Shown in pieces: positions 1,453 through 61,390 of a stretch of DNA of 64,000 nt (position 1 is its first letter; each line of letters begins with the position of its first letter). The position numbers were made by a program, and so were the translations under genes. This DNA is from Rhodobacter capsulatus (lineage in GTDB: Bacteria > Pseudomonadota > Alphaproteobacteria > Rhodobacterales > Rhodobacteraceae): NCBI RefSeq assembly GCF_003254295.1, contig NZ_QKZO01000006.1, positions 142,819-206,818 on the forward strand, read 5' to 3'. Below the pieces are notes generated by a model, which searched no databases, was not told where the DNA came from, and saw only the letters and a program-made list of their open reading frames with translations.

Positions 1453-1676
1453 TGCCGCATCTTTGGCCGCGGCCCGTGACGCGGCCATGCGCCGGACATC
1501 TGCAGCAACTCCCGCCGGGGCCCAAAGGCCCCCGGCCAGCGCCCGCCCCGCCCATGGCGGGCGCTTGTCGCCCGCCGGGCCGGGCGCCGGCCTCTGTCGT
1601 GCCTGAGGAAACGGTCGCGGCATCTGCGCGGCGCTGACGGGCGGGGAAAAGCGGTGCTTTTCCTGATCCGCCCGAA
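1453..1676 (+). repeat. Structured dispersed repeat, copy A
   Basis: First of three related copies of a roughly 215-bp intergenic element (the others start at 13151 and 61177). It holds two hairpins. HP1 spans 1534-1592: outer arms GGCCAGCGCCCG and CGGGCGCCGGCC with one A-C mismatch, inner arms GGCGGGCG/CGCCCGCC around a CTTGT loop. HP2 spans 1639-1673: outer GGGCGG/CCGCCC, inner GGAAAAGC/GCTTTTCC around a 3-nt loop. It lies between the RND gene and the creatinase gene, both on the plus strand. This is the most diverged copy. The rest of the 1450-1843 gap shows no gene, only the creatinase ribosome-binding site at its end. Possible roles are terminator, small RNA or mobile palindromic element; the sequence alone does not decide. 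Confidence 0.75.
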
Positions 1677-1843
1677 ACACGGCACTCTGCCGCCACTTGC
1701 CAGCCGCCCTGCCCTTTGGCATGCTTGCCCTGAGCCGTGGCGATGGCGTCGCCACCGGGCATGGCCCGATGCTTGCGGGGTTCCCCTGCTTACGTCCTGA
1801 ACGCCGGGATCTTTCGGGGTCCCACGGGCCCAAAGGACAGATC

Positions 1844-3049
1844 ATGCAACGACCCGAATTCTACAGCTGCGAAAACGGCCCCAAGGCGGTGCTGCCGTTT
1901 GAGGCCGCCGAATACGAGGCCCGTCTGGCGGGCCTGCGCGACATCATGGAGCTGCACTCCCTTGATGCGGTGCTGCTGACCTCGATGCACAACATCGCCT
2001 ATTACTCGGGCTTCCTTTACTGCAGCTTCGGCCGCCCCTACGGGCTGGTGGTGACGCGGGACCGATCCGTGGTGATCTCGGCCGGGATCGATGCGGGCCA
2101 GCCCTGGCGGCGCAGCCATGGCGAAAGCCTGACCTATACCGACTGGGCGCGCGACAATTACTGGCGCGCCGTCGTCCATGTGATCGGCACGGGCAAGGCG
2201 GTGGGCTGCGAGGCCGACCACCTGACGATGCTGAACGCGGAAAAGTTCAGCCACTTCCTGAAACCGAAGCGCGGATTGGACATCGCGCCCGCGACGATGA
2301 CGCAACGGATGGTGAAATCCGAGGCCGAGATCGCGCTGATCACCCACGGCGCCGCCGTCGCCGATGTCGGCGGCTATGCGATCCGCGACACGATCAAGGA
2401 AGGCCTGCGCGAGATCGACGTGGCGATGGCAGGCCGCGACGCGATGGAGGCGGAAATCGCGAAGCGCTTCCCCGAGGCCGAATACCGCGACAGCTGGGTC
2501 TGGTTCCAGTCCGGGCTGAACACCGACGGCGCGCACAACCCGGTGACGGGGCGGGTGCTGCAACGCGGTGACATCCTGTCGCTGAACTGCTTCCCGATGA
2601 TCTCGGGCTATTACACCGCGCTCGAACGCACGATGTTCCTGGGCGAAGTCGACCCGGCCAGCCTGAGGATCTGGGAGGCGAACGTCGCCGCGCATGACTA
2701 CGGCATGTCGCTGCTGGTGCCGGGCGCCGTCTGCTCCGAGGTGACGCAGAAGATCAACGCCTTCTTCGCCGAGCGCGACCTGCTGCAATATCGCACCTTC
2801 GGCTATGGCCATTCCTTCGGCGTGCTGTCGCATTACTACGGCCGCGAGGCGGGGCTGGAACTGCGCGAGGACATCGACACCGTTCTGGAACCCGGCATGG
2901 TGATTTCGATGGAGCCGATGCTGACCCTGCCCGCAGGCATGCCCGGCGCGGGCGGCTACCGCGAACACGACATTCTGGTGATCGGCGAGACCGGCGCCGA
3001 GGACATCACGAAATATCCCTATGGCCCCGGCTTCAACCTGGTCGGATAA
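1844..3049 (+). CDS. Creatinase (creatine amidinohydrolase)
   Basis: Hydrolyses creatine to sarcosine and urea in the cytoplasm (EC 3.5.3.3). The 401-residue product matches the roughly 403-residue length of characterised creatinases and, as far as I can recall the Pseudomonas enzyme, shares long blocks with it, such as YYSGFLYCSFGRPYGLVVT, FQSGLNTDGAHNPVT and FGYGHSFGVLSHYYGREAG. It has the pita-bread M24 fold of prolidases, but creatinase does not need metal. The ATG at 1844 has the ribosome-binding site AAAGGACAG directly upstream; the longer open frame from 1697 adds only non-homologous residues. A strong hairpin follows at 3058-3080. No creatininase or sarcosine oxidase gene is adjacent, so the gene stands alone. 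A related M24 amidinohydrolase with another guanidino substrate is possible but less likely. Confidence 0.9.
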   Translation: MQRPEFYSCENGPKAVLPFEAAEYEARLAGLRDIMELHSLDAVLLTSMHNIAYYSGFLYCSFGRPYGLVVTRDRSVVISAGIDAGQPWRRSHGESLTYTDWARDNYWRAVVHVIGTGKAVGCEADHLTMLNAEKFSHFLKPKRGLDIAPATMTQRMVKSEAEIALITHGAAVADVGGYAIRDTIKEGLREIDVAMAGRDAMEAEIAKRFPEAEYRDSWVWFQSGLNTDGAHNPVTGRVLQRGDILSLNCFPMISGYYTALERTMFLGEVDPASLRIWEANVAAHDYGMSLLVPGAVCSEVTQKINAFFAERDLLQYRTFGYGHSFGVLSHYYGREAGLELREDIDTVLEPGMVISMEPMLTLPAGMPGAGGYREHDILVIGETGAEDITKYPYGPGFNLVG

Positions 3050-3057
3050 GATCGGCG

Positions 3058-3080
3058 GGGGCGGCAGGCGCCGCCCCTTT
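3058..3080 (+). terminator. Intrinsic terminator-like hairpin after creatinase
   Basis: Perfect 8-bp stem GGGGCGGC/GCCGCCCC with an AGGC loop, followed by TTT, 8 bp after the creatinase stop codon. The T run is short, as is usual in GC-rich genomes. Confidence 0.65.
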
Positions 3081-3221
3081 CGCCACAGAGAGCGGAAATG
3101 TCACGGTTTTCGCGATCACAACCACGCGAGGGCTTGACCTTGGGGCGGCCCCACCCCCTGATCGACGCTCATACGCTCCGCTGACGCGGGGATTCGCTCA
3201 TTTCACGACAGGTGCTGCCCC

Positions 3222-4070
3222 GTGTCCCGTCTTCCGCTTGCCTTCCGTGTCCCGCTTGCGGGCTGTCTCGCCGTTGCGCTGCTGGCGGGCTGCGCCGCCG
3301 ATCCCAAGGCCGCGAATGCGCCCTCGCTGCGGGGGGTGCCGCCCGAATATCAGGCCCGCCCCGATGGCGAGCGCGTCGTGCCCGCGGTAAACCCGGTCTA
3401 TCTGACCGAACGCAACCGCCGCCGCTGGGTCGACTATGCCGGTTCCGAGGGCAAGGACACGATCATCATCGACCCCTATGCGCGGGTGCTTTACCACGTC
3501 GTCGAACCGGGCAAGGCGATGCGCTTCGGCATTGCCGTCGGCAAGGCGGGCCGGGGTTTTTCCGGCGCGGCGGTGGTCGGGCGGAAGGAAGAATACCCGT
3601 CCTGGCAACCCACCGCGCGGATGGTCCGCGCCGATCCGGCGCTTTACGGGCCGCTGGCGGGCGGGCTTTCGGGCGGGCTCGACAACCCGCTTGGTGCGCG
3701 GGCGCTGTATCTCTATCGCAACGGCCGCGACACCTATTACCGCATCCATGGCACGATGGACCCGAGCTCGATCGGCAAGGCCACCTCGGCGGGCTGCATC
3801 CGGCTGTTCAACCAGGACATCATCGACATGTTCGACGAAGCGCCGCTGGGAACAAGGGTCAAGGTCCGCAGCCTCGCCGAAAGCCTGGAGCTGGAAGGGC
3901 CGATGCATGAGCTGCACACCGGCTATGTCGTGCCCGAGGCAGAGGTGGCGCTGATTGCCGCCGATGACGCCGCCTGGGCCGCCGGTCAGATCACCGATCC
4001 GGCGGTGCTGGAAGCGCAGCAGCATGCCGCCGCGGTCGCGGCCGCGCGGAAGGCCGGGGCCGGAAACTGA
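3222..4070 (+). CDS. L,D-transpeptidase (YkuD domain) lipoprotein
   Basis: Predicted L,D-transpeptidase that forms 3-3 peptidoglycan cross-links or attaches proteins to peptidoglycan in the periplasm. The 282-residue protein starts at a GTG with a hydrophobic signal ending in LLAGC (lipobox Cys24), so it should be lipid-anchored. The YkuD domain covers about residues 78-215 and carries the catalytic signature: His176 in HGTMDP and SAGCIR (189-194) with nucleophile Cys192. The C-terminal 70 residues are Ala-rich and of no known fold. Family and anchoring are clear. Which cross-link it makes, and whether it is a sorting enzyme or a cross-linker, cannot be told from sequence. Confidence 0.9.
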
Positions 4071-4121
4071 CCGGACGGGCCGAAACCCGGCCCCGGGCGG
4101 GCCGGTCACGCGGGCCCGGGC

Positions 4122-4168
4122 GGCCGGGGCTCTGCCCCGGACCCCGGGATATTTGCCCCAAGGTGAAA
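4122..4168 (+). repeat. GATATTTG-core intergenic element, site 1
   Basis: Hairpin CCGGGGC/GCCCCGG followed by the core CCCCGGGATATTTG and CCAAGGTGAAA. It lies between the L,D-transpeptidase gene and panB, in plus orientation. It is the only one of the eight sites in this window lying between two codirectional plus-strand genes. The rest of the 4071-4279 gap is GC-rich and shows no gene. Confidence 0.7.
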
Positions 4169-4279
4169 CAGGCGCGACGGCCCGGCTTGCGGCTGCGGCG
4201 GATGCTGCATCGCGGCGTTGTCACTTTGCATTTACCGAATGGAACGGCTAGGAAGCGGGCAAGGGAGAGGGAGACAAGC

Positions 4280-5104
4280 ATGAGCGCGACCGCAAGCCTG
4301 AAACGGCTGATGCCTTCGGATATTCTGGCGCTGAAGGGCAAGGCGCCGGTGGTGGTGCTGACCGCCTATACGACGCCCGTCGCGCGGCTGGCCGATCCGG
4401 CCTGCGACGTGCTGCTGGTGGGCGATTCGGTGGGGATGGTGCTGCATGGCCTGCCCTCGACGCTGGGCGTGACGATGGAGATGATGATCCTGCACGGCCG
4501 GGCGGTGATGCGCGGCGCGGATCGGGCGCTGGTCGCGATCGACATGCCCTTTGGCAGCTACGAGGAAGGGCCGGAGCAGGCCTTCCGCAATGCGGCGCGG
4601 CTGATGGCGGAAACCGGCGCGGGCGCGGTGAAGCTGGAAGGCGGCGTGCACATGGCCGAGACCATCGCCTTTCTGGTGGCGCGCGGCATCCCGGTGATGG
4701 CGCATATCGGGCTGACGCCGCAATCGGTGAACACGCTTGGCGGCTACAAGGTGCAGGGCCGCGGCGCGGATGGTGACCGGCTCAAGGCCGATGCGCTGGC
4801 AGTGACCGAAGCCGGGGCGTTTTCGGTGGTGCTGGAAAAGGTGCCGGCGGAACTGGCGGGCGAGATTTCGGCGATGATCGCGATTCCGACGATCGGCATC
4901 GGCGCCGGGGTCGATTGCGACGGTCAGGTGCTGGTGATCGACGACATGCTGGGGCTGTTCACCGATTTCCGGCCGAAATTCGTCAAGCGCTATGCGGAAC
5001 TGGGCCGCACCGCCGCCGAGGCCGTGGCCGCCTATGCCGCCGAAGTCCGCAGCCGGGCCTTTCCCGCCCCGGAATATTCCTTCTTCGACGAGGTGAAGAA
5101 ATGA
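4280..5104 (+). CDS. panB: 3-methyl-2-oxobutanoate hydroxymethyltransferase
   Basis: First step of pantothenate synthesis: transfers a hydroxymethyl group from 5,10-methylene-tetrahydrofolate to alpha-ketoisovalerate, giving ketopantoate (EC 2.1.2.11). The 274-residue protein has the PanB blocks [10 protein letters not shown] (metal-binding Asp), [20 protein letters not shown] and IPTIGIGAG. The ATG at 4280 is preceded by the purine-rich site GGGAGAGGGAGA; the upstream in-frame ATG at 4163 would add 39 residues that do not fit the family. Its stop overlaps the panC start as ATGA, so the two genes should be translationally coupled and make ketopantoate and pantothenate in sequence. Confidence 0.96.
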
Positions 5105-5940
5105 CGCAAGTGATCCGCACCTCGGCCGAACTGCGCGAGAAGGTGGCGACCTGGAAGCGCTCGGGGATGCTGGTGGGCGTCGTGCCGACGATGGGGGCGC
5201 TGCATGACGGCCACATGAGCCTGGTGCGCGAGGCCCGCAAACACTCCGACCGGGTGATCGTGACGGTCTTCGTCAACCCGATGCAGTTCAACAACAAGGA
5301 CGATCTGGAGAAATATCCGCGCGACGAGGATCACGATCTGGCGCTGCTCGAGGCCGAGGGGGCGGATGTGCTTTTTGCCCCGGGCGTGCACGAGGTCTAT
5401 CCGGACGGTTTCGCCACCGTGGTCGCCGTCTCGGGCGTGTCGGAGCCGCTGGAAGGCGCCTTCCGCCCCGGCCATTTCGAAGGCGTGGCGACGGTGGTGT
5501 CGAAGCTTTTCGGCATGACCCAGGCGGGCCGCGCCTTCTTTGGCGAGAAGGACTGGCAGCAGGTGCAGGTGGTCAAGCGCATGGTCGAGGATCTGAACGT
5601 GCCGATCCGCGTCATCCCCTGCCCCACCATCCGCGAGGAAGACGGTCTGGCGATGTCCTCGCGCAATGTGCGGCTGAACCCGGAGCAGCGCGCCGTGGCG
5701 CCGCGGCTGCATGCGGAAATGCAGGCGGCGGCGGCGGCGATCCGCGCCGGGGCCCCGGTGGCCGCGACGCTGCAGGCGACAAAGGCCGCGATCAGCGCCG
5801 CGGGCTTCGGCAGCTGGGATTATCTTGAGCTGCGCAGCGCCGAGGGGCTGCGGCCGATGACCGAGCTGTCGGAACCGGCGCGGATGCTGGCCGCGGTTTA
5901 CCTCGGCGATGTGCGGCTGATCGACAATATCGCCGTGTGA
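5101..5940 (+). CDS. panC: Pantothenate synthetase (pantoate-beta-alanine ligase)
   Basis: ATP-dependent condensation of pantoate with beta-alanine through a pantoyl-adenylate (EC 6.3.2.1). The 279-residue protein has the nucleotidyl-transferase start [15 protein letters not shown] (HIGH-like motif), then [16 protein letters not shown] and the KMSKS-like AMSSRNV. The start codon overlaps the panB stop (ATGA). It ends in an intergenic hairpin element shared with the convergent gene at 6045. The usual third partner, panE or ilvC, is not next to it. Confidence 0.96.
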
Positions 5941-5945
5941 CAAAG

Positions 5946-6025
5946 GCCGGGGGCGCTGCCCCCGGACCCCCGGCGTATTTGCACCAAGAAAAAGACCATG
6001 GCTTTTCCTGGTCCAAATACGCCCT
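5946..6025. repeat. GATATTTG-core element, site 2 (paired inverted copies)
   Basis: A plus-orientation copy (hairpin GGGGGCGCTGCCCCC, variant core CCCCGGCGTATTTG, then CACCAAGAAAAAG) is followed at 6002-6023 by an inverted half-copy ending CCAAATACGCC. It sits in the convergent gap between panC and the minus-strand gene at 6045, as expected for a bidirectional terminator. Confidence 0.7.
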
Positions 6026-6044
6026 TGCGCGGGCGGGGCCGGGA

Positions 6045-6296
6045 TCAGGCCTGGGGCTTTGACTGCAACCGATAGACCCCCTCGGGCAGGTCGAGGGCGG
6101 CGGCAAGTTCGCGCAGCTGCGCATGCGAGAACACCACGCGCACCACCGTATCGGTGGTCTCGTCGAGTTGCTCGACCACCACGCAATCCTCGAAGGACTG
6201 GATGGTGATGTCTTCCTGCAGATAGTCGCGGGGATCGTCCCCCTCGTCGACGAGGGTGATCACGGTGGCGTCGAATTCGTGCTCGATGGTGAACAT
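6045..6296 (-). CDS. Conserved hypothetical protein, 83 aa
   Basis: I do not recognise a characterised family. The product is a small acidic soluble protein with no signal peptide or membrane segment. It is rich in Asp/Glu in the first half (VDEGDDPRDYLQEDI) and ends in a predicted helix with SHAQLRELAAAL. Codon use looks like that of its neighbours, and the frame is flanked by convergent panC and the divergent M48 protease gene 127 bp away, so it is probably a real gene. The function is unknown. Confidence 0.7.
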   Translation of the reverse strand: MFTIEHEFDATVITLVDEGDDPRDYLQEDITIQSFEDCVVVEQLDETTDTVVRVVFSHAQLRELAAALDLPEGVYRLQSKPQA

Positions 6297-6423
6297 GTGG
6301 GCATGCTAGCGCGGCGGGCGAAGCACGAAAAGGGCAAACATTTCGGTGATCTGGCCGAAGGTGATTGCACCCGCGGGCAGCCCCGTTACTATCGCGTCAC
6401 AGTTTGTTCCGGGCCTGCGATCC

Positions 6424-7176
6424 ATGCCGCGCCGCTTCCTTGTCGTTCTTGCCCTGCCGCTGGCGCTGGCCGCCTGCGACACCCCGCATTCCGGGATGAA
6501 TGGCGCATCGCTGCCGCGCCCGAAGCCGCCGGTGGTGACGGTGGAAACCGGCCCCGATGCGCGGACGGCAGCGGCGAATTTCCTCGCCGTGGCGCAGGAC
6601 ATGGAGCCGCGGATCGAAAGCGAATGTCTGGCGCGCTCGCACGGGCGGCGCAATTGCGACTATCAGGTGATGGTCGATGAACGCCCCGAGCCGCAGCCGA
6701 ACGCCTTTCAGACGCTGGATGACCGCGGCCGTCCGATCGTCGCCTTCAACCTCGCGCTGATCGCCGAGGCCCGCAACCGCGACGAGCTGGCCTTTGTCAT
6801 GGGCCACGAGGCGGCGCATTACATTCTGGGGCATCTGGAGCAGAAAAGCTCGGATGCCTCCAAGGGTGCGCTGATTCTGGGGGCCTTGGCGGCGGCCTCG
6901 GGGGCGGATGCCGATGGCGTCGCGCAGGCGCGCGATTTCGGCGCGGAAATGGGCGCGCGGGCCTATTCCAAGGATTACGAATTGCAGGCCGATGCGCTGG
7001 GCACGGTGATCGCCTGGAACGCGGGCTACGACCCGGAACGCGGGGCGCTGTTCTTTACCCGGCTGCCCGATCCCGGGCACAGCTTTCTGGGCACCCATCC
7101 GGCGAATGGCGAGCGCATCGCAGTGGTGCACCGGGTCACCGCGGCGCTGCGCAAGGGCACGTTCCGCGGTTTCTGA
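6424..7176 (+). CDS. M48-family metalloprotease lipoprotein
   Basis: Predicted zinc peptidase of the periplasm or outer-membrane inner face (Oma1/BepA/LoiP-like M48). The 250-residue protein begins with a lipoprotein signal ending ALAAC (Cys18). It carries HEAAH (residues 128-132) as the zinc-binding and catalytic motif and E186 in ELQAD as the likely third ligand, followed by DALG as in other M48 enzymes. The ATG at 6424 is chosen because it begins the signal peptide; the ORF extends upstream to 6346 without a signal-like sequence. It has no TPR domain, unlike BepA, so it resembles the short LoiP/YcaL type. Envelope quality control is the likely role (inference). Confidence 0.88.
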   Translation: MPRRFLVVLALPLALAACDTPHSGMNGASLPRPKPPVVTVETGPDARTAAANFLAVAQDMEPRIESECLARSHGRRNCDYQVMVDERPEPQPNAFQTLDDRGRPIVAFNLALIAEARNRDELAFVMGHEAAHYILGHLEQKSSDASKGALILGALAAASGADADGVAQARDFGAEMGARAYSKDYELQADALGTVIAWNAGYDPERGALFFTRLPDPGHSFLGTHPANGERIAVVHRVTAALRKGTFRGF

Positions 7177-7246
7177 TCCGCAATCTGCCCAATTCCCCGG
7201 CATATCCGCCGGCGCGAGCGGCAACACCCCGCCCCTCGCGCAAAGA

Positions 7247-7260
7247 TTGATCTGAATCAT
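7247..7260 (+). promoter_or_regulatory. FNR/FnrL-type box upstream of the DUF6455 pair
   Basis: TTGAT-CTGA-ATCAT matches the FNR consensus TTGAT-N4-ATCAA at 9 of 10 defined positions. It lies 60 bp upstream of the ATG at 7321, a spacing that allows activation. In Rhodobacter, FnrL with an oxygen-labile iron-sulfur cluster binds such sites under low oxygen. The binding itself is inference. Confidence 0.6.
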
Positions 7261-7320
7261 GGCAATTCAGCCGCCGCGGCGGATGCTTCCTGCGATGCTG
7301 CCCGGAACAAGGAATGGCTT

Positions 7321-7638
7321 ATGCACGGACGGAAGACCCTCAATCGGCATGCTGCCCTGATGAACCGCATGGCGCAGGCGCTTGGCGTCAATCTGACCGA
7401 GATGATGCTGCAAGGGAAGCTGGGCGGTGACGACTGGCGCGAGGCGGTGGTGCGCTGTTCCGATTGCCCGGAGCCGACCGACTGCCTGCACTGGCTGTCG
7501 GAGCATGACGAGGAGAGCGGGCGCGCGAAGCCCGCGGCCGAGGCGCCGGACTATTGCACCAATCGCGAGATGATGGCCCGGCTGCGGGCGGCGCTGGCCG
7601 CGGATCAGGTTCTTGCAGACGCCGAAGGAGAGAAATGA
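7321..7638 (+). CDS. DUF6455 family protein, first of a tandem pair
   Basis: Small 105-residue soluble protein of a family I associate with Rhodobacteraceae (DUF6455) and of unknown function. The N-terminal helical region (LMNRMAQALGVNLTEMML) is followed by four spaced cysteines, C46-x2-C49-x5-C55-x23-C79, which look like a metal or redox site. SD sequence AAGGAA lies 7 nt before the ATG. Its stop overlaps the start of a paralogue with the same cysteine spacing. An FNR box upstream suggests oxygen-dependent expression. The family call is from pattern memory and could not be checked by a search. Confidence 0.75.
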   Translation: MHGRKTLNRHAALMNRMAQALGVNLTEMMLQGKLGGDDWREAVVRCSDCPEPTDCLHWLSEHDEESGRAKPAAEAPDYCTNREMMARLRAALAADQVLADAEGEK

Positions 7639-7898
7639 TGGGCATTCAGGGCAATATCGATCTGTATTTCTGGATTGCCCGCGGCATGGGACGGCGGTTG
7701 GGGGTGAACATCACCGAGGCGATGCACGAGGGGCTGCTGACACAGGCGGATTTCGCGCAGATGATCAACCGCTGCCGCTGCTGCGCCGGGTCGGAAGGCT
7801 GTCTGGCCTATCTGTCGGAACATTCCGAGGAACGCGGCTCGGCCCCGGACTGGTGCGGCAACGGCAACCTGCTGCGCGAAATCCGCGCGATGGGCTGA
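7635..7898 (+). CDS. DUF6455 family protein, second of a tandem pair
   Basis: Paralogue of the preceding gene, 87 residues. It shares the layout MGRRLGVNITEAM then C47-x2-C50-x5-C56-x17-C74, with one extra cysteine (C49), and the LSEHSEE segment that matches LSEHDEE upstream. Two ATG codons are possible, 7635 (overlapping the previous stop as ATGA) and 7638; the GAAGGAGA site fits 7638 slightly better in spacing. The paired cysteine pattern suggests that the two proteins bind the same kind of metal or form a heteromer (inference). The stop at 7898 is close to the convergent ptsP. Confidence 0.75.
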   Translation: MMGIQGNIDLYFWIARGMGRRLGVNITEAMHEGLLTQADFAQMINRCRCCAGSEGCLAYLSEHSEERGSAPDWCGNGNLLREIRAMG

Positions 7899-7916
7899 GC
7901 CGCGCGCCGCGGCGTC

Positions 7917-11639: not shown

Positions 11640-13148
11640 ATGAGTCTCGATGAGGTTGAATACCGCGAAAGGCGGGCGCAGGCGCGTGGGCTGCAACGGG
11701 CGCTGGAGGCGTTGCGCGACGATCTGGTGCGGCGGTCGGATGCGACGATGGAGGGCTGGGAGGGGCTGGTGCGGCGGCCGGAATTCCTGCCCTCGGCGCG
11801 CAATCTGGCCGATTATCTGGCGTTGCGGCGCGGCGATCTGGTGCCGTTTCAGGCGCCCTTGGCCTCGCTTGGCCTCTCCTCGCTCGGCCGGGCCGAGGCG
11901 CATGTGCGCCCCTCGATCGATGCGGTTCTGGCGTCCTTGGCGATGATCGGCGGCGAGGGGATCGCAAGCTATCCGACGGTGGAGACCTTTGCCGCGGGCC
12001 CGGCGCGTCTGGCGGCGCGGCGCGATGCGCTCTTTGGCGCCCGGCGCGAGGCGCCGCGCTCGCGGGTGATGGTGACGCTGCCGACCGAGGCGGCGGTGAA
12101 CCCCGATCTGGTCGGCGGGCTGATCGCGGCCGGGGCGGATTGCGTGCGGATCAATTGCGCCCATGACAACCCCGATGTCTGGGCGGCGATGATCGGTCAG
12201 GTCCGCCATGCGGCGATGAAGGCCGGGCGGCGGGTGCCGGTGCAGATGGACATCGAAGGCCCGAAACTGCGGGTCGAGGCGCTTTCGGAAAGCGTCGAGG
12301 AGACCGGGCGGCTGTTCGAGGGCGATCGGTTCGAAGTGGTCGAGACGCTCGGCCATGACGCCGATCTGCCGCAGGTGCGGCTTTCGCATCCGGCGCTGAT
12401 GGAGGCGATGGCCGAGGGCGGCGCGATCTGGATCAACGACGGCAAGCTGCGGGCGAAGATCCTCAAGGTGCGGCCCGGCAAGGTGCTGGCCGAGGTGACC
12501 TCAACCCCCTCGAAGGGCGCGAAGATCAAGGTCGAAAAGGGGGTGAACCTGCCCGGCGTCGATCTGCGCGTGCCCGCGCTGACCGAGGCGGATCTGGGTC
12601 ATCTCGATTTCGTGCTGGGCCATGCCGACATTCTGGGCTTTTCCTTCGTGCAGACCGGCACCGATCTGCGGGCGCTCTTTGCGGAACTCGATGCGCGTTC
12701 CGATGGCGGCACCGCGCGCGACTGGCCGGCGCTGATGCTGAAGATCGAGACGCCGCTGGCGCTGCGCAACCTGCCCGCGCTGATCGTCGAGGCGGGCGGA
12801 CGGGTGCCGGTGGGCGCGATGATCGCGCGCGGCGATCTGGCGGTGGAGATCGGCTTCGAGCGGCTGAGCGAGATTCAGGAGGAAGTCCTGTGGCTGTGCG
12901 AAGCGGCCGAGGTTCCCGTCGTCTGGGCGACGCAGGTGCTGGAAGGCATGGTCAAGGAAGGACAAGCCAGCCGGGCCGAGATGACGGACGCCGCGATGAG
13001 CCAGCGCGCCGAATGCGTGATGCTGAACAAGGGCCCGCATCTTGTGCAGGCGGTGACGTTCCTCCGCGATGTGTTGATGCGGATGGACCGGCACACCTCG
13101 AAGAAATCGCCCCGGCTGGGGGCGCTGGGGCTCTGGCACGACCTGTGA
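11640..13148 (+). CDS. Atypical pyruvate kinase
   Basis: Pyruvate kinase fold protein of 502 residues, probably converting PEP and ADP to pyruvate and ATP. Residues about 135-500 carry recognisable blocks: GADCVRINCAHD, MDIEGPKLRVE, KGVNLPGVDLRVPALTEAD, LMLKIETP (catalytic Lys), MIARGDLAVEIG and ATQVLEGMV. It is odd in two ways. It has a 130-residue N-terminal helical extension of unknown fold, and it stops soon after VMLNKGPHL, where ordinary enzymes read MLSGETAxG and continue into the regulatory C-domain. The ATG at 11640 has a strong AGGAGG site. A divergent kinase with another substrate or reduced regulation is possible. Confidence 0.8.
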   Translation: MSLDEVEYRERRAQARGLQRALEALRDDLVRRSDATMEGWEGLVRRPEFLPSARNLADYLALRRGDLVPFQAPLASLGLSSLGRAEAHVRPSIDAVLASLAMIGGEGIASYPTVETFAAGPARLAARRDALFGARREAPRSRVMVTLPTEAAVNPDLVGGLIAAGADCVRINCAHDNPDVWAAMIGQVRHAAMKAGRRVPVQMDIEGPKLRVEALSESVEETGRLFEGDRFEVVETLGHDADLPQVRLSHPALMEAMAEGGAIWINDGKLRAKILKVRPGKVLAEVTSTPSKGAKIKVEKGVNLPGVDLRVPALTEADLGHLDFVLGHADILGFSFVQTGTDLRALFAELDARSDGGTARDWPALMLKIETPLALRNLPALIVEAGGRVPVGAMIARGDLAVEIGFERLSEIQEEVLWLCEAAEVPVVWATQVLEGMVKEGQASRAEMTDAAMSQRAECVMLNKGPHLVQAVTFLRDVLMRMDRHTSKKSPRLGALGLWHDL

Positions 13149-13150
13149 CC

Positions 13151-13364
13151 CGATGATCTGGCCGAGGCCCTGCGACACATCCGCCCCCTGACCGCCGAGG
13201 GCCCAAAGGCACTCGGTGAGCCGCCCGCCCCGCCATCGGCGGGCGCTTTCGCGCCGCCGATGGCGGGACGCTGGCCTCTGTTGCGCGGGACACACCGGTC
13301 CCGCCACGGCGCGGCCGCAAGCGGGCGGGGAAAGGCGGCGCCTTTCCTTCTCCGCCCGCCCCCA
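13151..13364 (+). repeat. Structured dispersed repeat, copy B
   Basis: Second copy of the roughly 215-bp element, in the convergent gap between the pyruvate kinase gene and the flavoprotein gene at 13370. HP1 is at 13230-13266 (CCGCCATCGGCGGGCGC paired with GCGCCGCCGATGGCGG, one bulge). HP2 is at 13323-13357 (GGGCGG/CCGCCC outside, GGAAAGGC/GCCTTTCC inside). HP1 differs in sequence from copies A and C but still pairs. It almost abuts the stop codon of the minus-strand gene. Confidence 0.75.
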
Positions 13365-13369
13365 CCGTC

Positions 13370-48548: not shown

Positions 48549-48554
48549 CCTGTC

Positions 48555-53065: not shown

Positions 53066-53066
53066 G

Positions 53067-54590: not shown

Positions 54591-54602
54591 CCGCAGGGGC
54601 GA

Positions 54603-55928
54603 TCAGTGCGGCCGGACCGCCACTTCGAAGAGATGCGCGTTCAGCAGCAGATGCACGCCGATCGCGGCGAAATAGCCCAGCGCGATCGCCCAGGTCCATT
54701 TCAGATGCCCCGAGAACGAATAATGCCCCCGCGCCTGCCCCATCAGCGCCACCCCGGCCGCCGAGCCGATCGACAGAAGCGAGCCGCCGACGCCGCAGGT
54801 GAGCGTGATCAGAAGCCATTGCCCGTGGCTCATGTCGGGCTCCATCGTCAGCACCGCAAACATCAGCGGGATGTTGTCGACCACCGCCGACATCATGCCA
54901 AGGATGGTGTTGGCCGCGGTCGCGCCAAGCCCGTCGTAAAGCGCCACCGACAGCATGTCGAGATAGCCCAGAACCCCCAGCCCGCCGACGGCAAAGATGA
55001 TCCCGAAGAAGAACAGCAGCGTGTCCCATTCCACCCGCTCGAACTGCTTGAAACTGTCCAGAACCAGCTCGGTGTTGTGCTGGCGCCGGCCGTTGCGGGT
55101 CAGGAAATAGGAATAGATCTGCAGATAGCCCAGCCCCAGCATCATCCCCATCGCCGGGGGCAGATGCAGGAAGTTCTTGAAGCTGATCGCAGAGCCGATG
55201 GTCAGCCCGAACAGCACGATCACCATCGCCCCGCCGGGTTTCATCCTTGCGTTGTCCGCGGTCCGGGGGGGGATCTCGTTCGGGATCGCAAGGGACATGA
55301 TCGCCGCGGGCACCAGCCAGTTCACCAGCGAAGGCAGGAACAGCACGAAGAATTCGAAGAACTCGATCACGCCCTTTTGCCAGACCATCAGCGTGGTGAT
55401 GTCGCCAAAGGGGGTGAAGGCGCCCCCGGCATTGGCCGCAACCACGATCGAGATGCAGCCGATCATCACGAATTTCGGCGCCGCACGCCCGACCGCGACC
55501 ACCACCGTTCCCATCACCAGCGCCGTCGTCAGGTTGTCAAGAATGCCCGAGAGGAAGAAGGCGATGATCCCGGTCAGCCAGAACAGCTTGCGATAGCTCA
55601 GCCCCATGCCCACCAGTTTCGCCCGCAGCGCGTCGAAGACCCGGCGCTCCTCGAGCGTGTTGACATAGGTGATCGCGACCAGCAGGAACAGGAACAGCTC
55701 GCCATATTCCTCGACGATATGGGTGGCCTTTTCATGCGCCAGATCGGAAAGACCGGCGCGGGCATAGGCGATACCGATCAGCATCCAGATCAGCCCGGCC
55801 GCCAGCATCACCGGCTTCGACTTGCGCATGTGGGTGGTCTCTTCCATCACCACAAGCGCATAGGCGCCAAGGAAGATCATCACCGACAGAATGCCGAAGA
55901 TGCTTCCGGTCAGATCGAGTTGTTCCAT
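54603..55928 (-). CDS. nhaD: Na+/H+ antiporter, NhaD type
   Basis: 441-residue ion transporter with about twelve hydrophobic helices that exchanges sodium for protons across the inner membrane. Family marks are SGILDNLTTALVMGTV, NAGGAFTPFGDITTLMVW and SAVVDNIPLMFAVLTM, which carry the conserved Asp residues. The ATG at 55928 has CGGAGGAACC upstream. It ends in a perfect palindromic terminator. It lies next to the opg operon; both deal with osmotic or salt stress, though no shared promoter is seen. Confidence 0.92.
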   Translation of the reverse strand: MEQLDLTGSIFGILSVMIFLGAYALVVMEETTHMRKSKPVMLAAGLIWMLIGIAYARAGLSDLAHEKATHIVEEYGELFLFLLVAITYVNTLEERRVFDALRAKLVGMGLSYRKLFWLTGIIAFFLSGILDNLTTALVMGTVVVAVGRAAPKFVMIGCISIVVAANAGGAFTPFGDITTLMVWQKGVIEFFEFFVLFLPSLVNWLVPAAIMSLAIPNEIPPRTADNARMKPGGAMVIVLFGLTIGSAISFKNFLHLPPAMGMMLGLGYLQIYSYFLTRNGRRQHNTELVLDSFKQFERVEWDTLLFFFGIIFAVGGLGVLGYLDMLSVALYDGLGATAANTILGMMSAVVDNIPLMFAVLTMEPDMSHGQWLLITLTCGVGGSLLSIGSAAGVALMGQARGHYSFSGHLKWTWAIALGYFAAIGVHLLLNAHLFEVAVRPH

Positions 55929-55999
55929 GGTTCCTCCGGCTGTTTGCACCGGTTTATCCAGCCTGCCCCGGTGTCACAAGAGCGCCGTCGCCGTCGGTC

Positions 56000-56031
56000 G
56001 CAGGCTGGCACGCAGGCTGGCACGCAGACTG
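56000..56031. repeat. 12-bp tandem repeat between nhaD and opgG
   Basis: GCAGGCTGGCAC occurs twice in tandem (56000-56011, 56012-56023), followed by a third, shorter copy beginning GCAGACTG. It is within the 466-bp nhaD/opgG gap; no gene is seen there. Confidence 0.7.
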
Positions 56032-56179
56032 CGGCCCAAGGCGCAAGAGCCGGGCCGAGCGGCCGCGACTCACCCCCCGCCCGGGGCGGGACTGCCGCTC
56101 TTTGCAGCTGCGGAAAAACCGGCCGAAAGCCGCTAAAACATGTATCGAAATCGGGAAAATCCGCTTGGCCCGCGCAGAA

Positions 56180-56220
56180 TGCGCAACTTCGTGACGGATG
56201 CGCGGAAACTTGCGCAACTT
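56180..56220 (+). promoter_or_regulatory. Paired TGCGCAACTT direct repeats upstream of the opg promoter
   Basis: TGCGCAACTT at 56180-56189 and again at 56211-56220, 31 bp apart (about three helical turns), some 60 to 100 bp upstream of the predicted opg promoter. Spacing on one DNA face suggests a regulator; none is identified. Confidence 0.35.
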
Positions 56221-56275
56221 TGCGCCAAAACCGGCGGGACAGCGCCCATTTGACACATCTGTTACGCAAACTCTC

Positions 56276-56305
56276 TTGCCAGTTTTTAAGCACTGTGGCT
56301 ATAGA
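56276..56305 (+). promoter_or_regulatory. Predicted opgGIHC promoter
   Basis: TTGCCA (56276-56281), 18 bp, then TATAGA (56300-56305), close to the sigma-70 consensus and in an AT-richer stretch. Transcription would start near 56312, about 80 bp before the opgG start. Confidence 0.45.
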
Positions 56306-56394
56306 AACGGCAAACGGGGGCGCCCCTGAGCGGCCTCTGGAACTATCTGACTTTGCATAGAAAACAGATGCCCTCCAGCCGGAACAAAGCCTCC

Positions 56395-58005
56395 ATGATG
56401 ATGACCCGCCGCCACCTTCTGGTGACGCTCTCCTCGGCTGCGATCCTTGCCGGGACGGGGGCCGTGCCGCGCAGTGCCCATGCGCAGGAAACCACCCCGC
56501 CCGCGCCGATCGACGTGCCCGCTGCGCCGCCGCAAAAACCTTTTAGCTTCGACACGCTCGCCGAAGAGATGCGCGCGCGGGCCGGTGCCGGTCCCGATGC
56601 GCCGATGGTGCTGCCCGACAGCTTCCTCAACCAGCTCACCTATGATCTGTACCGGCTGATCCGCTTCGATCCGGCCAAGGCGCGGTTTGCCGATGTCGAA
56701 CGGACGCATTTCCAGCTGCATGCCTTCCACATGGGCTGGCTGTTCAAGGAACCGGTGCTGCTGAACGAGGTGATCGGCGGGCAGACCCTGCCGATGGGCT
56801 TCGACACTGACGATTTCATCTATGAGCGCGAAAGCCGCGACAAGGTTCCGCTGCATGTGGCGCTGCCGGGCGTTGCGGGCTTCCGCCTGCACACGCCGCT
56901 CAACCGCCCCGATGTCTTCGACGAGCTGGTGGCGTTTCAGGGCGCGTCGTATTTCCGCGCCCTTGGCCGCAACTCGGCCTATGGCCTCTCGGCGCGCGGC
57001 CTTGCGGTGAACACCGGCCTGTCAGTGGCCGAGGAATTCCCGCGCTTCACCCGCTTCTGGATTCAGCGCCCCGAGCCGGGCGGCGAGACGATCACGATCT
57101 GGGCGGCGCTGGAAAGCGCCTCGCTGACCGGCGCCTATCAGTTCGTCATCCGCCCCGGCTTCGAGACGGTGATGGATGTGACGGCGCGGCTCTTCTTCCG
57201 CGCCGACGTGCAGCAGCTGGGCATCGCGCCGCTCACCTCGATGTTCCTGTTCTCGGAACGCAACCGCAAGGATTTCGACGATTACCGGCCCAAGGTGCAT
57301 GACAGCGACGGGCTGGGCATCGTGCGCGCCGATGGCGACATCCTGTGGCGGCCGCTGGCGAACCCGTCGCGGCTGGCCTCGTCCTATTTCTCGGAAACCG
57401 CGCCGAAGTCCTTTGGACTTTACCAGCGCGACCGCGAATTCGACCATTATCAGGACGATGCCGCGCATTACGAAAAGCGCCCCTCCTGCGTGGTCGAGCC
57501 GATCGGCGACTGGGGCAAGGGCGTGATCCGTCTGGTCGAGATCCCGTCGGATCTGGAAGTGAACGACAACATCGTCGCTTTCTGGATTCCCGACGCGCCG
57601 GCGAAAGCGGGCGAAAGCCGCGAATTCAGCTACCGGCTGCGCTGGGGCGATCTGGAATTCGAGGATTTCGACGACCGCGCCCATGTCAAGGAAACCCGCA
57701 CCGGCGAGGGTGGGGTTTCGGGCGTGCAGAATACCGATGGCACGCGCAAATTCGTCATCGACTTCGTCGGCGGGCTGATGGACAGCCTTGGCCATGACGA
57801 GGCCGAGAACCTGAGCATCGTCGCCAATGCCTGGAACGGCGAGATCGTGACGAAAGTGCTGTCCCGCAACACCACCGACGGAATCTGGCGTCTTGTCATG
57901 GATGTGAAGCCGACCGGGGGTGACACTGTCGAACTGGCTGCCCATATCGCTGGATATGGTCGCAAGCTGACCGAAACCTGGCTCTATCAATGGATCCACG
58001 CATGA
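56395..58005 (+). CDS. opgG: Osmoregulated periplasmic glucan synthesis protein OpgG
   Basis: Periplasmic protein needed for branching or release of osmoregulated periplasmic glucans. 536 residues from ATG 56395, with a Tat-like signal (MTRRHLLVTLSSAAILAGTGAVPRSAHA, given by its ends). The mature part has FAFDTLAEEMRARA-like start and family segments GFDTDDFIYE, AYGLSARGLAVNTG and FRADVQQLGIAPLTSMFLFSE. First gene of opgGIHC. Starts at 56353 (TTG) and 56368 are also in frame; the twin-arginine start was preferred. The following gene overlaps its stop by ATGA. Confidence 0.92.
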   Translation: MMMTRRHLLVTLSSAAILAGTGAVPRSAHAQETTPPAPIDVPAAPPQKPFSFDTLAEEMRARAGAGPDAPMVLPDSFLNQLTYDLYRLIRFDPAKARFADVERTHFQLHAFHMGWLFKEPVLLNEVIGGQTLPMGFDTDDFIYERESRDKVPLHVALPGVAGFRLHTPLNRPDVFDELVAFQGASYFRALGRNSAYGLSARGLAVNTGLSVAEEFPRFTRFWIQRPEPGGETITIWAALESASLTGAYQFVIRPGFETVMDVTARLFFRADVQQLGIAPLTSMFLFSERNRKDFDDYRPKVHDSDGLGIVRADGDILWRPLANPSRLASSYFSETAPKSFGLYQRDREFDHYQDDAAHYEKRPSCVVEPIGDWGKGVIRLVEIPSDLEVNDNIVAFWIPDAPAKAGESREFSYRLRWGDLEFEDFDDRAHVKETRTGEGGVSGVQNTDGTRKFVIDFVGGLMDSLGHDEAENLSIVANAWNGEIVTKVLSRNTTDGIWRLVMDVKPTGGDTVELAAHIAGYGRKLTETWLYQWIHA

Positions 58006-58202
58006 CCGCGCATACCTCCTCTCTCACTGCGCTCGCGTCCGAAGCCGTCCTCACGCCCGATGCGCTGATTGCCGGGCCCTGTGCCCTGCCGGTGGCGCCG
58101 ATGGCGATGCCGCATCAGGTGATCGAACCGCAAAGCGGGCTGATCCGACGTCTGCTGACCGGTCTGCACCTGCAGGCCGCGCATGTCGGCACCGGCCACT
58201 GA
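58002..58202 (+). CDS. opgI: Small OpgI-like protein
   Basis: 66-residue protein encoded between opgG and opgH, overlapping opgG by ATGA and, if opgH starts at 58183, opgH by 20 bp. It has no signal peptide or transmembrane helix; the centre reads PCALPVAPMAMPHQVIEP. The name rests on position: R. sphaeroides has been described with an opgGIH-opgC operon in which opgI encodes a small protein of unknown role. I cannot compare the sequences here, so this is positional inference. Confidence 0.6.
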   Translation: MTAHTSSLTALASEAVLTPDALIAGPCALPVAPMAMPHQVIEPQSGLIRRLLTGLHLQAAHVGTGH

Positions 58203-60012
58203 GATCATGGCGCGCTCGCTCGCATCGCTCGCAGGGCTTTACGCCCTGCGTTTTCTTGCCATCGCCTTCAGCCTGATCGCGGGGATTGGCGCCTTCATCC
58301 TGTTCCTGCAGTTCGGCTCGGTCGACGGGATCGACGCGCTCGATGTGACGCGGGCAGTCTTGATCCTGATCTCGACGCAATGGCTGGCGCTTGGCGCCAC
58401 CGTCGCGATGATCGGCCTGCCGAGCCGCGCCCGGCCGCCGAAATACGACGCGACCGCGCCGATCAAGGGCAGCACCGTGGTGCTGGTGCCGGTCTATAAC
58501 GAAGATCCGCTGGTGACATTCGCCCGGATCGCCGCGATGGATGCCTCGCTGGCGGCCACGGGCGATGCGGCTTCGGTGCATTTCGCCGTTCTGTCCGACA
58601 CCCGCAATGACCTGATCGCCGCGCGCGAGAAGCTGATCTTTGCGCGCCTCGTGGCGGAACGCAACGCGGTCGGCCGCTTCTTCTATCGCCGTCGCGAGCA
58701 GAACACCGGCAAGAAAGCGGGCAATATCGAGGATTTCATCACCCGCTCGGGCGGGGCCTATGATTATGCCGTGATCCTTGACGCCGACAGTCTGATGGAA
58801 GGCGAGACCATCTTGCAGATGATCCGCCGGATGGAGGCCGAGCCGCGTCTGGGCCTGTTGCAGACCCTGCCCAAGGTGATCCGCGCGCGGTCCCGCTTTG
58901 GCCGGGCGATGCAATTCGCCGCCGCCTTCTTCTCGCCCGTCTTCGCCCGGGGTCTGGCCATGGTGCAGGGCGAAACCGGCCCGTTCTGGGGCCATAATGC
59001 GATCGTGCGCACCCGCGCCTTTGCCGAAAGCTGCGGCCTGCCCGCGCTGAAGGGCAAGCCGCCCTTTGGCGGCCATGTCATGAGCCATGATTACGTCGAA
59101 GCCGCGCTGCTGGCGCGCGCGGGCTGGATCGTGCGGCTCGATGACGATCTGGGCGGCAGCTACGAGGAAGGCCCGGAAAACATCGTCGATCACGCCAAAC
59201 GCGACCGGCGCTGGTGTCAGGGCAACCTGCAGCACAGCCGGATCATCGGCGCGCCGGGGCTGCGGCTGTGGTCGCGCTTCGTCTTCTCGCAAGGGATCAT
59301 GGCTTATATCGCGCCCTTGTTCTGGGTCGGCTTCATCCTGGCCTCGATCGCCGCGCCGCTGCTGGCGCCGCCGCCGGATTACTTCCCGACCCCCTACTGG
59401 CCGATTCCCTATTTCCCGCCGTCCGAAGCCTCCAAGGCGATCAGCCTTGCCATCGGTATCTTCGGCCTGCTGTTCCTGCCCAAGGTGCTGATCGCCACGC
59501 GGATGGCGCTGACGGGTGCGGCAAAAGGTTTCGGGGGGGCGGCGCTCGGCTTTGCCTCGACGCTCTCGGAACTGGCGCTGTCCTCGATCACCGCGCCGGT
59601 TCTGCTGATGTATTCGACGCGCTCGGTGCTGCAGGTGGTGATGGGCCGCGATGGTGGCTGGCCCACCAACAACCGCGGCGACGGCACGCTCAGCCTCAAG
59701 GACAGCTTCGCCGCCTCGCATTGGATCGTCACCATCGGCCTTGTCGGCCTTATGACGACGTGGTTTTTCGCCCCCGGCCTGCTGCTCTGGCTCTTGCCCG
59801 TCGGCCTGCCGATGGTGTTTTCGCCGCTGATCCTGTCCTGGTCTTCGCGGCCCTCGCGGTCGCGACTGATGGGGGTTCCCAGCGAATATGCGAAACCCGC
59901 CGTGGTGAAACTTCATGACGAAGTGCTCAATCGCTGGGCACTTGACGCCGAGACCGAACAGGAACAAGACGCGCGACAACCGAAGAAAGAGTTGTCCGCG
60001 CATCATGGCTGA
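58183..60012 (+). CDS. opgH: Glucan glucosyltransferase OpgH
   Basis: Inner-membrane glucosyltransferase that builds the beta-glucan backbone from UDP-glucose and moves it to the periplasm. 609 residues with N-terminal helices, then a GT2 domain (about 90-400) with PVYNEDP, DADSLMEGETI (DxD), HDYVEAALL and the RRWCQGNLQH motif, followed by several C-terminal helices. Start is 58183 (20-bp overlap with opgI) or 58207. Acts with OpgG and OpgC encoded by the neighbouring genes. Confidence 0.93.
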   Translation: MSAPATEIMARSLASLAGLYALRFLAIAFSLIAGIGAFILFLQFGSVDGIDALDVTRAVLILISTQWLALGATVAMIGLPSRARPPKYDATAPIKGSTVVLVPVYNEDPLVTFARIAAMDASLAATGDAASVHFAVLSDTRNDLIAAREKLIFARLVAERNAVGRFFYRRREQNTGKKAGNIEDFITRSGGAYDYAVILDADSLMEGETILQMIRRMEAEPRLGLLQTLPKVIRARSRFGRAMQFAAAFFSPVFARGLAMVQGETGPFWGHNAIVRTRAFAESCGLPALKGKPPFGGHVMSHDYVEAALLARAGWIVRLDDDLGGSYEEGPENIVDHAKRDRRWCQGNLQHSRIIGAPGLRLWSRFVFSQGIMAYIAPLFWVGFILASIAAPLLAPPPDYFPTPYWPIPYFPPSEASKAISLAIGIFGLLFLPKVLIATRMALTGAAKGFGGAALGFASTLSELALSSITAPVLLMYSTRSVLQVVMGRDGGWPTNNRGDGTLSLKDSFAASHWIVTIGLVGLMTTWFFAPGLLLWLLPVGLPMVFSPLILSWSSRPSRSRLMGVPSEYAKPAVVKLHDEVLNRWALDAETEQEQDARQPKKELSAHHG

Positions 60013-61162
60013 TCACCCCCACGTGCCGCTTGCAGGCGGCGCCCGCGACCCCCGGCTGGATTTCTTCCGGGGCGTCAGCCTCGTGATGATCTACATGAAC
60101 CACGTGCCGGGGACGTTCTACGAGAACCTGACCTCGCGCAATTACGGCCTGTCCGACGCGGCCGAGGGCTTCGTCTTCATGTCGGGCTGTGCCGCGGCGC
60201 TGGCTTACGGGCCGAAGCTCAAGGACGGGCTGAACTGGCCCAGCATCCGCAAATGCTGGGGCCGGGCTTGGCTGCTCTACTTGGTGCATATCTTCATCTC
60301 GGCCTGGGCGATCGCGATTGCCGCCGGGGCGACGCTGTGGTTCGGCGGCGGCGAGATGCTGAAACACAACGCCTTCGGCCCGCTGACCGAGACCCCGCTT
60401 GCCTTCCTCGTCGGCATCGCGACGCTGGGGCACCAGCTGGGCTATGTGAACATCCTGCCGATGTATGCGGTGCTGCTGCTCTGGGCGCCGTTCCTGATCC
60501 GGTTGGGACAGCGAAAACCGATGGGGCTTTTGGCCTTCACCATCGGGCTTTGGGCACTCGCGGGCTGGTTCGGGCTCGATCTGCCGAATTATCCGTTTGA
60601 TGGCGGCTGGTTCTTCAACCCGTTCTCGTGGCAGCTCCTGTTTTCGCTGGGCATCCTGACCGGGCTGTTCCTGCGCCGGGGCGAGCGTTTCGTGCCGATC
60701 TGGAAGGCGCTGATCGTGCCCGCGGTGATCTGGCTTGTGTTCTGCGCATTCTGGGCGCAATCGCCCGATCTGCAGGCGCAGTTCGGCCATGTGATCTGGA
60801 CGATCCTGCAATATGACGTGCCCCGCTTCCTCGTCGATTTCGACAAGACCTATGTCTCGGGGCCGCGGCTGACGCATTTCCTGGCGGTGGCTTATATCCT
60901 GTCGCTGCCCTGGCTGGTGCCGTCGATCGCCGCCTCGCGGGTGATGAAGCCGATCCGCACCATGGGCAAGCAGGGGCTGCAGGTCTTTGCGCTGGGGACC
61001 GTGCTGGCGATCTTTTCTCAGGCGGTGAAGACCTCGCATCCGGGCGGGTTCTGGCAGGATACCGTGCTGATCCTGGGCGGGCTGGGGCTGCAATGGGCCC
61101 TTGCCGCCGTGCGCGAACATATCAAGCCGCATCCGACCGCGCCGAAGGCCGCGACCGCCTGA
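60005..61162 (+). CDS. opgC: OpgC protein (glucan succinylation)
   Basis: 385-residue polytopic acyltransferase-like membrane protein with about ten helices, starting DPRLDFFRGVSLVMIYMNHVPGTFYENLTSRNYGLSDAAEGFVFMSG (residues about 13-60). In R. sphaeroides OpgC adds succinyl groups to periplasmic glucans, raising their charge. It overlaps opgH by 8 bp and is the last gene of the operon. The third copy of the structured repeat follows its stop. Confidence 0.9.
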   Translation: MADHPHVPLAGGARDPRLDFFRGVSLVMIYMNHVPGTFYENLTSRNYGLSDAAEGFVFMSGCAAALAYGPKLKDGLNWPSIRKCWGRAWLLYLVHIFISAWAIAIAAGATLWFGGGEMLKHNAFGPLTETPLAFLVGIATLGHQLGYVNILPMYAVLLLWAPFLIRLGQRKPMGLLAFTIGLWALAGWFGLDLPNYPFDGGWFFNPFSWQLLFSLGILTGLFLRRGERFVPIWKALIVPAVIWLVFCAFWAQSPDLQAQFGHVIWTILQYDVPRFLVDFDKTYVSGPRLTHFLAVAYILSLPWLVPSIAASRVMKPIRTMGKQGLQVFALGTVLAIFSQAVKTSHPGGFWQDTVLILGGLGLQWALAAVREHIKPHPTAPKAATA

Positions 61163-61176
61163 GGCGTCCCCCTGCC

Positions 61177-61390
61177 ATGACCGAGGCCATCGCCGAGGTC
61201 ACGCGGCACGTCAGCCCCCTGACCGCCGAGGGCCAAAAGGCACTCGGCCAGCGCCCGCCCCGCCCATGGCGGGCGCTTCTCGCCCGCCGGGGCGGGACGC
61301 TGGCCTCTCGTGGTGATCGCGACAAGCGGTCTTGTCATTGCGGGGCGCTTGCGGGCGGGGAAAGGCCGTGCCTTTCCTGTTCCGCCCGAG
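61177..61390 (+). repeat. Structured dispersed repeat, copy C
   Basis: Third copy of the roughly 215-bp element, in the convergent gap between opgC and the LysR gene. HP1 spans 61246-61305: outer GGCCAGCGCCCGCCCCG/CGGGGCGGGACGCTGGCC with one bulge, inner GGCGGGCG/CGCCCGCC around CTTCT. HP2 spans 61353-61387: outer GGGCGG/CCGCCC, inner GGAAAGGC/GCCTTTCC. HP2 is exactly 35 nt in all three copies. Confidence 0.8.

Follow-up and report, generated by a model that had tools for sequence, protein, structure and literature searches.

Where along its genes does a bacterium place a repeat whose hairpins can form on either strand, and what would it do there? The question is raised by a structured repeat, here called E, present in three copies (A, B and C) in a 64-kb stretch of a Rhodobacter capsulatus genome (G000, contig C6, positions 142819-206818; hereafter the window). 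Copy boundaries were set by a profile built from all copies, and the three window copies align with one another across about 211 nucleotides (nt). We propose that E is a dispersed chromosomal element of the Rhodobacter capsulatus group, similar to repetitive extragenic palindromes (REPs) and bacterial interspersed mosaic elements (BIMEs), that would serve as the 3' end of genes; we give this reading a probability of about 0.6. It is based on covariation in the stems of E, on its position next to stop codons and on its alternation with U-tailed hairpins at orthologous sites.

Structure and covariation of the element

A covariance model of E (R1) finds 43 copies in G000, on both strands, and a DNA query at least 40. 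The window trio being 3 of these 43, its plus-strand-only pattern, noted earlier, is a local chance. A 16-nt piece of the last hairpin, HPe, searched with at most one mismatch, matches G000 35 times (19 forward, 16 reverse), against 0 and 1 matches for the reversed pattern used as a control; four of the 35 (L027, L033, L036 and L037) have no profile match and were left out as not E.

The alignment of 42 copies, about 211 nt in length, reveals a fixed order of modules: hairpins HPa and HPb, the four-arm hairpin HPc, a conserved linker containing CGGTC (consensus, AAACGGTC region) and hairpin HPe. HPa has the consensus TGRCC-GA-GGC-CATC-GCC-GA-GGYCA, and at each of the two pairs of its GA/GA loop 13 of the 42 copies carry a standard pair instead. 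We modelled 51 base pairs, and 91.8% of the cells pair over the 42 copies. Two-sided changes occur in 14 of the 51 pairs (86 cells), compared with means of 7.7 pairs and 22.7 cells in shuffles, none of 500 being as high, and with 2-6 pairs and 4-8 cells in slid controls. Covariation above both kinds of control indicates a repeat family and not chance, and the comparison of copies supports selection acting on the paired structure of E. The folds of copies A, B and C also beat dinucleotide shuffles (z of -3.0, -3.9 and -5.0). Column 76 covaries both with column 53, in an extension of HPb, and with column 137, in the outer stem of HPc, so that these two pairings compete.

Wobble pairs were counted in 170 records from four genomes. 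Two of these records are duplicates from overlapping loci of one genome (G014); their removal leaves 168 elements, and the counts of wobble pairs, position, flanks, terminators, clusters and target-site duplications still include them, as do the identities given for single sites and the search for moved copies. On the plus strand, HPb holds 81 G-U against 8 A-C combinations, whereas the outer HPc stem holds 17 G-U against 138 A-C, the latter being wobble pairs on the minus strand. The structure of E may be important on both strands. Wobble asymmetry was rejected as proof of a plus-strand RNA because HPb and outer HPc contradict each other.

The copies and modules in the window are as follows.

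1463..1676, plus strand: copy A of E, between an RND (resistance-nodulation-division; AcrB-family) transporter gene and an M24/creatinase-type peptidase gene, both on the plus strand
1464..1487, plus strand: HPa of copy A, alignment columns 2-26
1513..1536, plus strand: HPb of copy A, alignment columns 53-76
1534..1592, plus strand: HPc (four-arm hairpin) of copy A, alignment columns 74-139
1638..1674, plus strand: HPe of copy A, columns 192-230, CGGGCGGGGAAAAGC ... GCTTTTCC .. CCGCCCG
13146..13360, plus strand: copy B of E, HPa degenerate, between convergent genes for a pyruvate kinase domain protein (plus strand) and an NADH:flavin oxidoreductase (minus strand)
13194..13217, plus strand: HPb of copy B, from the copy alignment
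13215..13276, plus strand: HPc of copy B, from the copy alignment
13322..13358, plus strand: HPe of copy B, from the copy alignment
61177..61390, plus strand: copy C of E, between convergent genes for an OpgC-like protein (plus strand) and a LysR-type regulator (minus strand)
61178..61201, plus strand: HPa of copy C, with the GA/GA internal loop
61225..61248, plus strand: HPb of copy C, from the copy alignment
61246..61305, plus strand: HPc of copy C, from the copy alignment
61352..61388, plus strand: HPe of copy C, from the copy alignment

These boundaries confirm in part the observation from which the analysis started. The original prediction described three plus-strand copies, each behind a plus-strand gene, and the profile bears this out. 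The start given for copy C (61177) stands, copy A begins nearer 1463 than 1453, and copy B begins at 13146. HPe, then called HP2, is 35 nt in each copy as described if the outermost pair is left out, and 37 nt with it; its stem does change from AAAAGC/GCTTTT in A to AAAGGC/GCCTTT in B and C. In place of two hairpins, four structured modules are recognised (HPa, HPb, HPc and HPe). The proposed selection on RNA structure is supported for the paired structure; on the RNA as a molecule, and on its strand, the wobble counts are contradictory. The covariation noted in three copies stays above shuffles in the 42-copy alignment, and copies are present in other strains and genera.

Four G000 copies are deletion forms missing parts of HPc. 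L022 and L023 have lost the inner arms, L010 the outer 3' arm and L024 part of the first arms. At two sites in two genomes a hairpin-rich second repeat of about 66 nt, of matching sequence, is inserted within HPb (L213 in G014, at the site of L049, and L204 in G009, at the site of copy B).

Position at gene ends and alternation with U-tailed hairpins

Gene context was assigned with a simple open reading frame caller for the 166 of 170 records that have enough flank. Convergent genes surround 104 of them and 32 lie in sense orientation between co-directional genes, which lean to sense (32 versus 15 antisense); one lies between divergent genes and 14 are unclear on one side. The distance from the 5'-side stop codon to E has a median of 11 nt (142 cases, 125 within 25 nt), and that from E to the 3'-side stop codon a median of 10 nt (124 cases, 107 within 25 nt).

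Sites without E were drawn from 16 regions picked by expected synteny, a part of all element-free sites. They gave 13 site-genome cases with orthologous flanks, no E and a gap below 100 nt (4 in G000, 1 in G010 and 8 in R. viridis). A U-tailed hairpin was called in 10 of the 13, compared with 28 of 336 control windows inside neighbouring genes; classical examples of a hairpin with its T-tail are found in R. viridis at site C and in G000 at the L098 site. The presence of U-tailed hairpins at orthologous element-free sites puts E in a slot that terminators use, and from this arrangement we infer that E itself would terminate transcription.

Copy number and distribution

Copy C was used as a DNA query against 41 genomes (its own, 17 others of the genus and 23 further ones; best 19 candidates per genome) and matched 9 of them. 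Among the matches listed, many copies occur in 4 of the 18 genus genomes: G000, G010, R. viridis JA737 (G009, identified by 100% matches) and R. capsulatus SP108 (G014). G005 has one partial and G013 one weak match, and 12 of the 18 have none among their best 19 candidates. The four rich genomes hold the 168 elements, as 51, 43, 42 and 32 copies, G000 having 43.

Model R1 matches 52 of 198 genomes of the family at an E-value of 0.001 (best 12 candidates per genome). Matches of at least 95 bits, among those listed, come only from G000 (at least 12), G059 (11), G210 (4), G198 (2) and G045 (1). An exact HPe variant is found in 24 stretches of named genomes, a count from which records near the window's own genome were possibly left out; its hosts are R. 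capsulatus, R. viridis, a Rhodobacter metagenome-assembled genome, Szabonella, Tabrizicola, Gemmobacter, Phaeovulum and unclassified Rhodobacteraceae. The HPb-HPc core (model R2) matches 41 of 149 Rhodobacteraceae genomes at an E-value of 1e-5 among the matches listed (best 29 candidates), 8 of these 41 having supplied R2 training sequences. In a class-wide draw of 142 genomes the R2 matches listed (best 31 candidates) come from just two genomes, G000 and a second one from the same family. As the core is widespread in the family and the full length rare, a few lineages appear to have enlarged a family-wide HPb-HPc core to form a longer mosaic.

A proposed 3'-end element and its relation to known repeats

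If E serves as the 3' end of genes, transcripts arriving from either side would stop in or just beyond it, through Rho or through hairpin-induced pausing. The consensus 3' end of E, CCGCCCGAACC, has no U-tract, and for this reason the likeliest form is judged to be a factor-dependent ending followed by trimming to a hairpin. The linkers of E contain more C than G, in 36 of 42 copies before HPb on the plus strand and in 35 of 42 before HPc on the minus strand, and are weakly Rho-like in this respect. Stable hairpins would then shield the new 3' ends from exonucleases. The stems, being inverted repeats, would form a hairpin on either strand, so that either neighbour could be served.

The earlier interpretation is partly supported in this sense: among the candidates it listed, a terminator fits best, since E marks the ends of genes and, at orthologous sites, gives way to U-tailed hairpins in some genomes. 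A miniature inverted-repeat transposable element (MITE), also listed, is not supported. Target-site duplications, suggested as a check, are not in excess: exact words of at least 6 nt shared within 14 nt of both ends occur in 6 of 166 records, with 6.65 expected from shuffled pairing. By eye, the consensus ends (TTGRCCGAGG and CCGCCCGAA) show no terminal inverted repeat beyond a few bases.

Several observations weigh against a role of E in ending transcripts. Over all pairs, the 170 records hold 117 G-U and 165 A-C combinations, HPb and HPc contradicting each other. The whole of E has more C than G in 31 of 42 copies, barely below the linkers, and the predicted unpaired probability of the linkers is only 0.40 and 0.46. 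Between co-directional genes, 15 records are antisense, some of them misclassified, as copy B is. Several of the ten hairpin calls at element-free sites are weak, about seven being clear by eye. In 57 of 170 records a loose terminator caller also reports a hit within E, and at 33 of 170 sites a U-tailed hairpin lies within 60 nt outside E, so E is not always the only terminator candidate.

BIMEs are mosaics of several hairpin modules, and so is E. REP units are palindromes of 20-40 nt with a GTAG/CTAC tetranucleotide, whereas E is about 211 nt long, has four modules in a fixed order and shows no GTAG in its consensus. REPs are described as dispersed palindromic repeats that lie at the ends of genes and in many cases between convergent ones (PMC1525189); E, too, is dispersed, chromosomal, palindromic and at gene ends, often of convergent genes. 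The location expected of a REP, at 3' ends between convergent or co-directional and not divergent genes, is also that of E (104 + 47 records versus 1 divergent).

Three other systems are comparable. The paired DNA uptake sequences of Neisseria and Pasteurellaceae are a genome-wide repeat co-opted as a terminator and enriched between convergent genes (PMC1852404). Their words are short, strongly conserved and placed in T-tailed hairpins, whereas E is long and variable and lacks a U-tract at its consensus end. Intrinsic terminators share the location of E and are found in its place at orthologous sites; E, by contrast, consists of several hairpins, has a consensus that ends without a U-tract and forms a multi-copy family with covarying stems. 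Structured intergenic motifs limited to Rhodobacterales, HRC-8-4 among them, have been described (PMC8632094), and E resembles them in being structured, intergenic and confined to this order. According to the same source, HRC-8-4 lies mainly at one locus, between ccoNOQP and ccoGHIS, and consists of a stem followed by a U run; by this description it differs from E, not being a 40-copy repeat at convergent gene ends. No description of E was found in the available parts of PMC8632094, PMC7866481, PMC1852404, PMC1525189 and PMC11109978, nor was any earlier one found in the literature searched, subscription papers lying outside the search. E would add a long, multi-module 3'-end repeat to the few dispersed-repeat families that replace terminators, in a genetic model organism.

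A possible, though clearly less probable, explanation is that E is a selfish repeat of the REP kind, without a useful role and found at gene ends since insertion elsewhere is harmful, its structure being kept for its own spread by an enzyme. Its patchy occurrence, with many copies in 4 of 18 genus genomes and full length in few other genera, would be expected of such a repeat, and paired changes in REP-like palindromes can arise without a host function. The occupation in G010 of 42 of the 43 G000 sites and the alternation of E with U-tailed hairpins suggest use instead. The REP-associated tyrosine transposase (RAYT; Y1_Tnp, PF01797) was detected in none of 14 genomes, including G000, G009, G010, G014, G059, G210 and G045, which carry full-length E, and PF01797 was detected in 5 of 14 control genomes. 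To this are added the lack of a target-site duplication excess and of any match to copy C among 72,556 plasmid and 50,697 phage records at blastn sensitivity.

Alternation of strand between genomes

The orthologous G010 sites, whose flanks are about 93% identical to those of G000, carry E in the same orientation in 18 cases and in the opposite orientation in 24; two of 26 flipped pairs were left out as partial matches to HPe. L039 is the sole G000 site without a counterpart, G010 being element-free there. Two stretches of the window illustrate the alternation.

13149..13368, no strand assigned: stretch between two stop codons, unaligned to the 218-nt orthologous G010 stretch, which carries an opposite-strand element
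61145..61387, no strand assigned: stretch unaligned to the 239-nt orthologous G010 stretch, which carries an opposite-strand element; in R. viridis the site holds a U-tailed hairpin

In the four genomes, 46 sites are common to at least two of them and 10 elements are unshared. The 201 between-genome site mates comprise 104 in the same and 97 in the opposite orientation. Same-orientation mates have a mean identity of 0.898, and a copy finds its best match at the same site in 145 of 208 comparisons; judged by their sequences, they look orthologous. Opposite mates have a mean identity of 0.813 and are best matches in 5 of 194 comparisons, random pairs standing at 0.806 (standard deviation 0.044). 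Orientation is uniform at 8 of the 43 sites typed in at least three genomes, where fair coins predict 7.9. Opposite mates are thus no more alike than unrelated copies, which shows that they are not in-place inversions. As far as searched, such strand alternation at conserved sites is undescribed.

Flanks were compared without the same-orientation pairs below 0.8. Same and opposite pairs differ by less than 0.01 in flank identity beyond 30 nt; within 30 nt of E they diverge, chiefly over the 10 nt nearest to it (0.758 versus 0.530). Old diverged haplotypes were rejected because the flanks differ only near E. General turnover of intergenic regions is argued against by one 64-kb comparison, that of the window with G010: besides three 99-nt joins made in the analysis, the only unaligned stretches of equal length are those of copies B (220/218 nt) and C (243/239 nt), the five others being unequal (52/372, 1040/3133, 36/2, 3/45 and 166/79 nt). 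Nor is transfer of a copy from another site supported: the best match of opposite copies in the other genome does not exceed 0.924 and lies at the same site in 5 of 196 comparisons. Repeated new insertion, as a point process, predicts many unrelated same-orientation mates; only 5 of 104 fall below an identity of 0.825, compared with 64% of random pairs. Neither a rule set by the replication strand nor a mixture of two parental populations, each with its own element type, is borne out: there is no association and no clear linkage; neighbouring sites within 10 kb are concordant in orientation in 27 of 44 cases.

Coarse identity clustering of the 46 sites (thresholds of 0.87, or 0.845 with R. viridis) gives one lineage at 16 sites, two at 21 and three at 9. 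This is not a clean two-lineage pattern: 7 clusters mix orientations and 11 orientation classes hold more than one lineage. The site of copy A has the same orientation in G010 and the reverse in R. viridis and SP108, the SP108 copy lacking HPe; these reversed copies are only 0.80 alike and possibly reflect separate events. Most sites nevertheless seem to have two old, unrelated elements on opposite strands, of which each genome shows one. We tentatively extend this, with considerable doubt, to some 40 gene-end sites of the R. capsulatus group, where an element-specific exchange might redraw, independently per site and lineage, the choice of the neighbour that is given a structured 3' end.

Hairpins usable on either strand would make orientation nearly neutral between convergent genes, which would fit the near-random orientation observed. 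As to its origin, we weakly prefer an initial state with one E per convergent gene, one of the pair having been lost later. This requires every site to be single. No double site is found among the 168 elements, a pattern that a constant loss rate does not predict and that strains the pair-loss idea. Likewise, no second element was found beside E in the fetched loci at 40 bits or more; a looser threshold gave three minus-strand partial matches over HPe in G010 (L122, L132 and L133), taken as HPe's own palindrome.

The two orientations could instead be alleles of one recombining population, exchanged for example through the gene transfer agent RcGTA and long kept by selection, an idea about as tentative as that of a selfish repeat. 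Old alleles that recombine with their surroundings are expected to have flanks as similar as those measured beyond 30 nt. Moreover, same-orientation mates of R. viridis and R. capsulatus average 0.87-0.88, above background, where other R. capsulatus genomes have the opposite orientation. The model nonetheless requires nearly all sites to be held near 50:50, as the count of uniform sites implies, and neighbouring sites show no clear linkage. Neither pair loss nor long-kept alleles fits without strain.

It is unlikely that E represents a family of trans-acting small RNAs arising by processing of 3' untranslated regions. Position in the 3' untranslated region and the conserved linker around CGGTC would suit such RNAs, whereas some 43 copies that differ by about 20% and flip in orientation are unlike a conserved transcript. 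Nor does Rfam hold a match to E, either in the whole window at gathering scores or for copy C at E-values up to 1. Least probable by far is a DNA segment inverted in place by a recombinase as a phase switch for convergent genes: the near coin toss of orientations without clear linkage would suit it, yet it predicts orthologous opposite mates, and these match at the level of random pairs, as stated above, while the direct, uninverted comparison of the 24 G000/G010 mates is at chance (0.49-0.57, like mismatched controls).

About 40 orthologous sites have the same genes and carry E in the same orientation, in the opposite one or not at all. They amount to a natural experiment, from which it would be possible to measure how a 3' element affects read-through, antisense transcription and mRNA life.

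Further observations at individual sites

The window segment 16139-17178 spans 1040 nt against 3133 nt in G010; an element common to G010 and R. viridis (L136 and L202) is expected near it, but no G000 counterpart was found. Two elements 1.5 kb apart (L025 in G000, C2:31803-33522, and L125 in G010) are both flipped between G000 and G010, and in SP108 the orientation of just one of them differs from that in G000. At the L021 site (G000, C1:15027) the copies of R. viridis and SP108 share 97% identity, whereas flanks of the two genomes are on average about 10% different; this suggests a recent transfer there. The sole Rfam match in the window is the ffh small RNA (sRNA), at 62479-62530 on the plus strand, with 62.5 bits.

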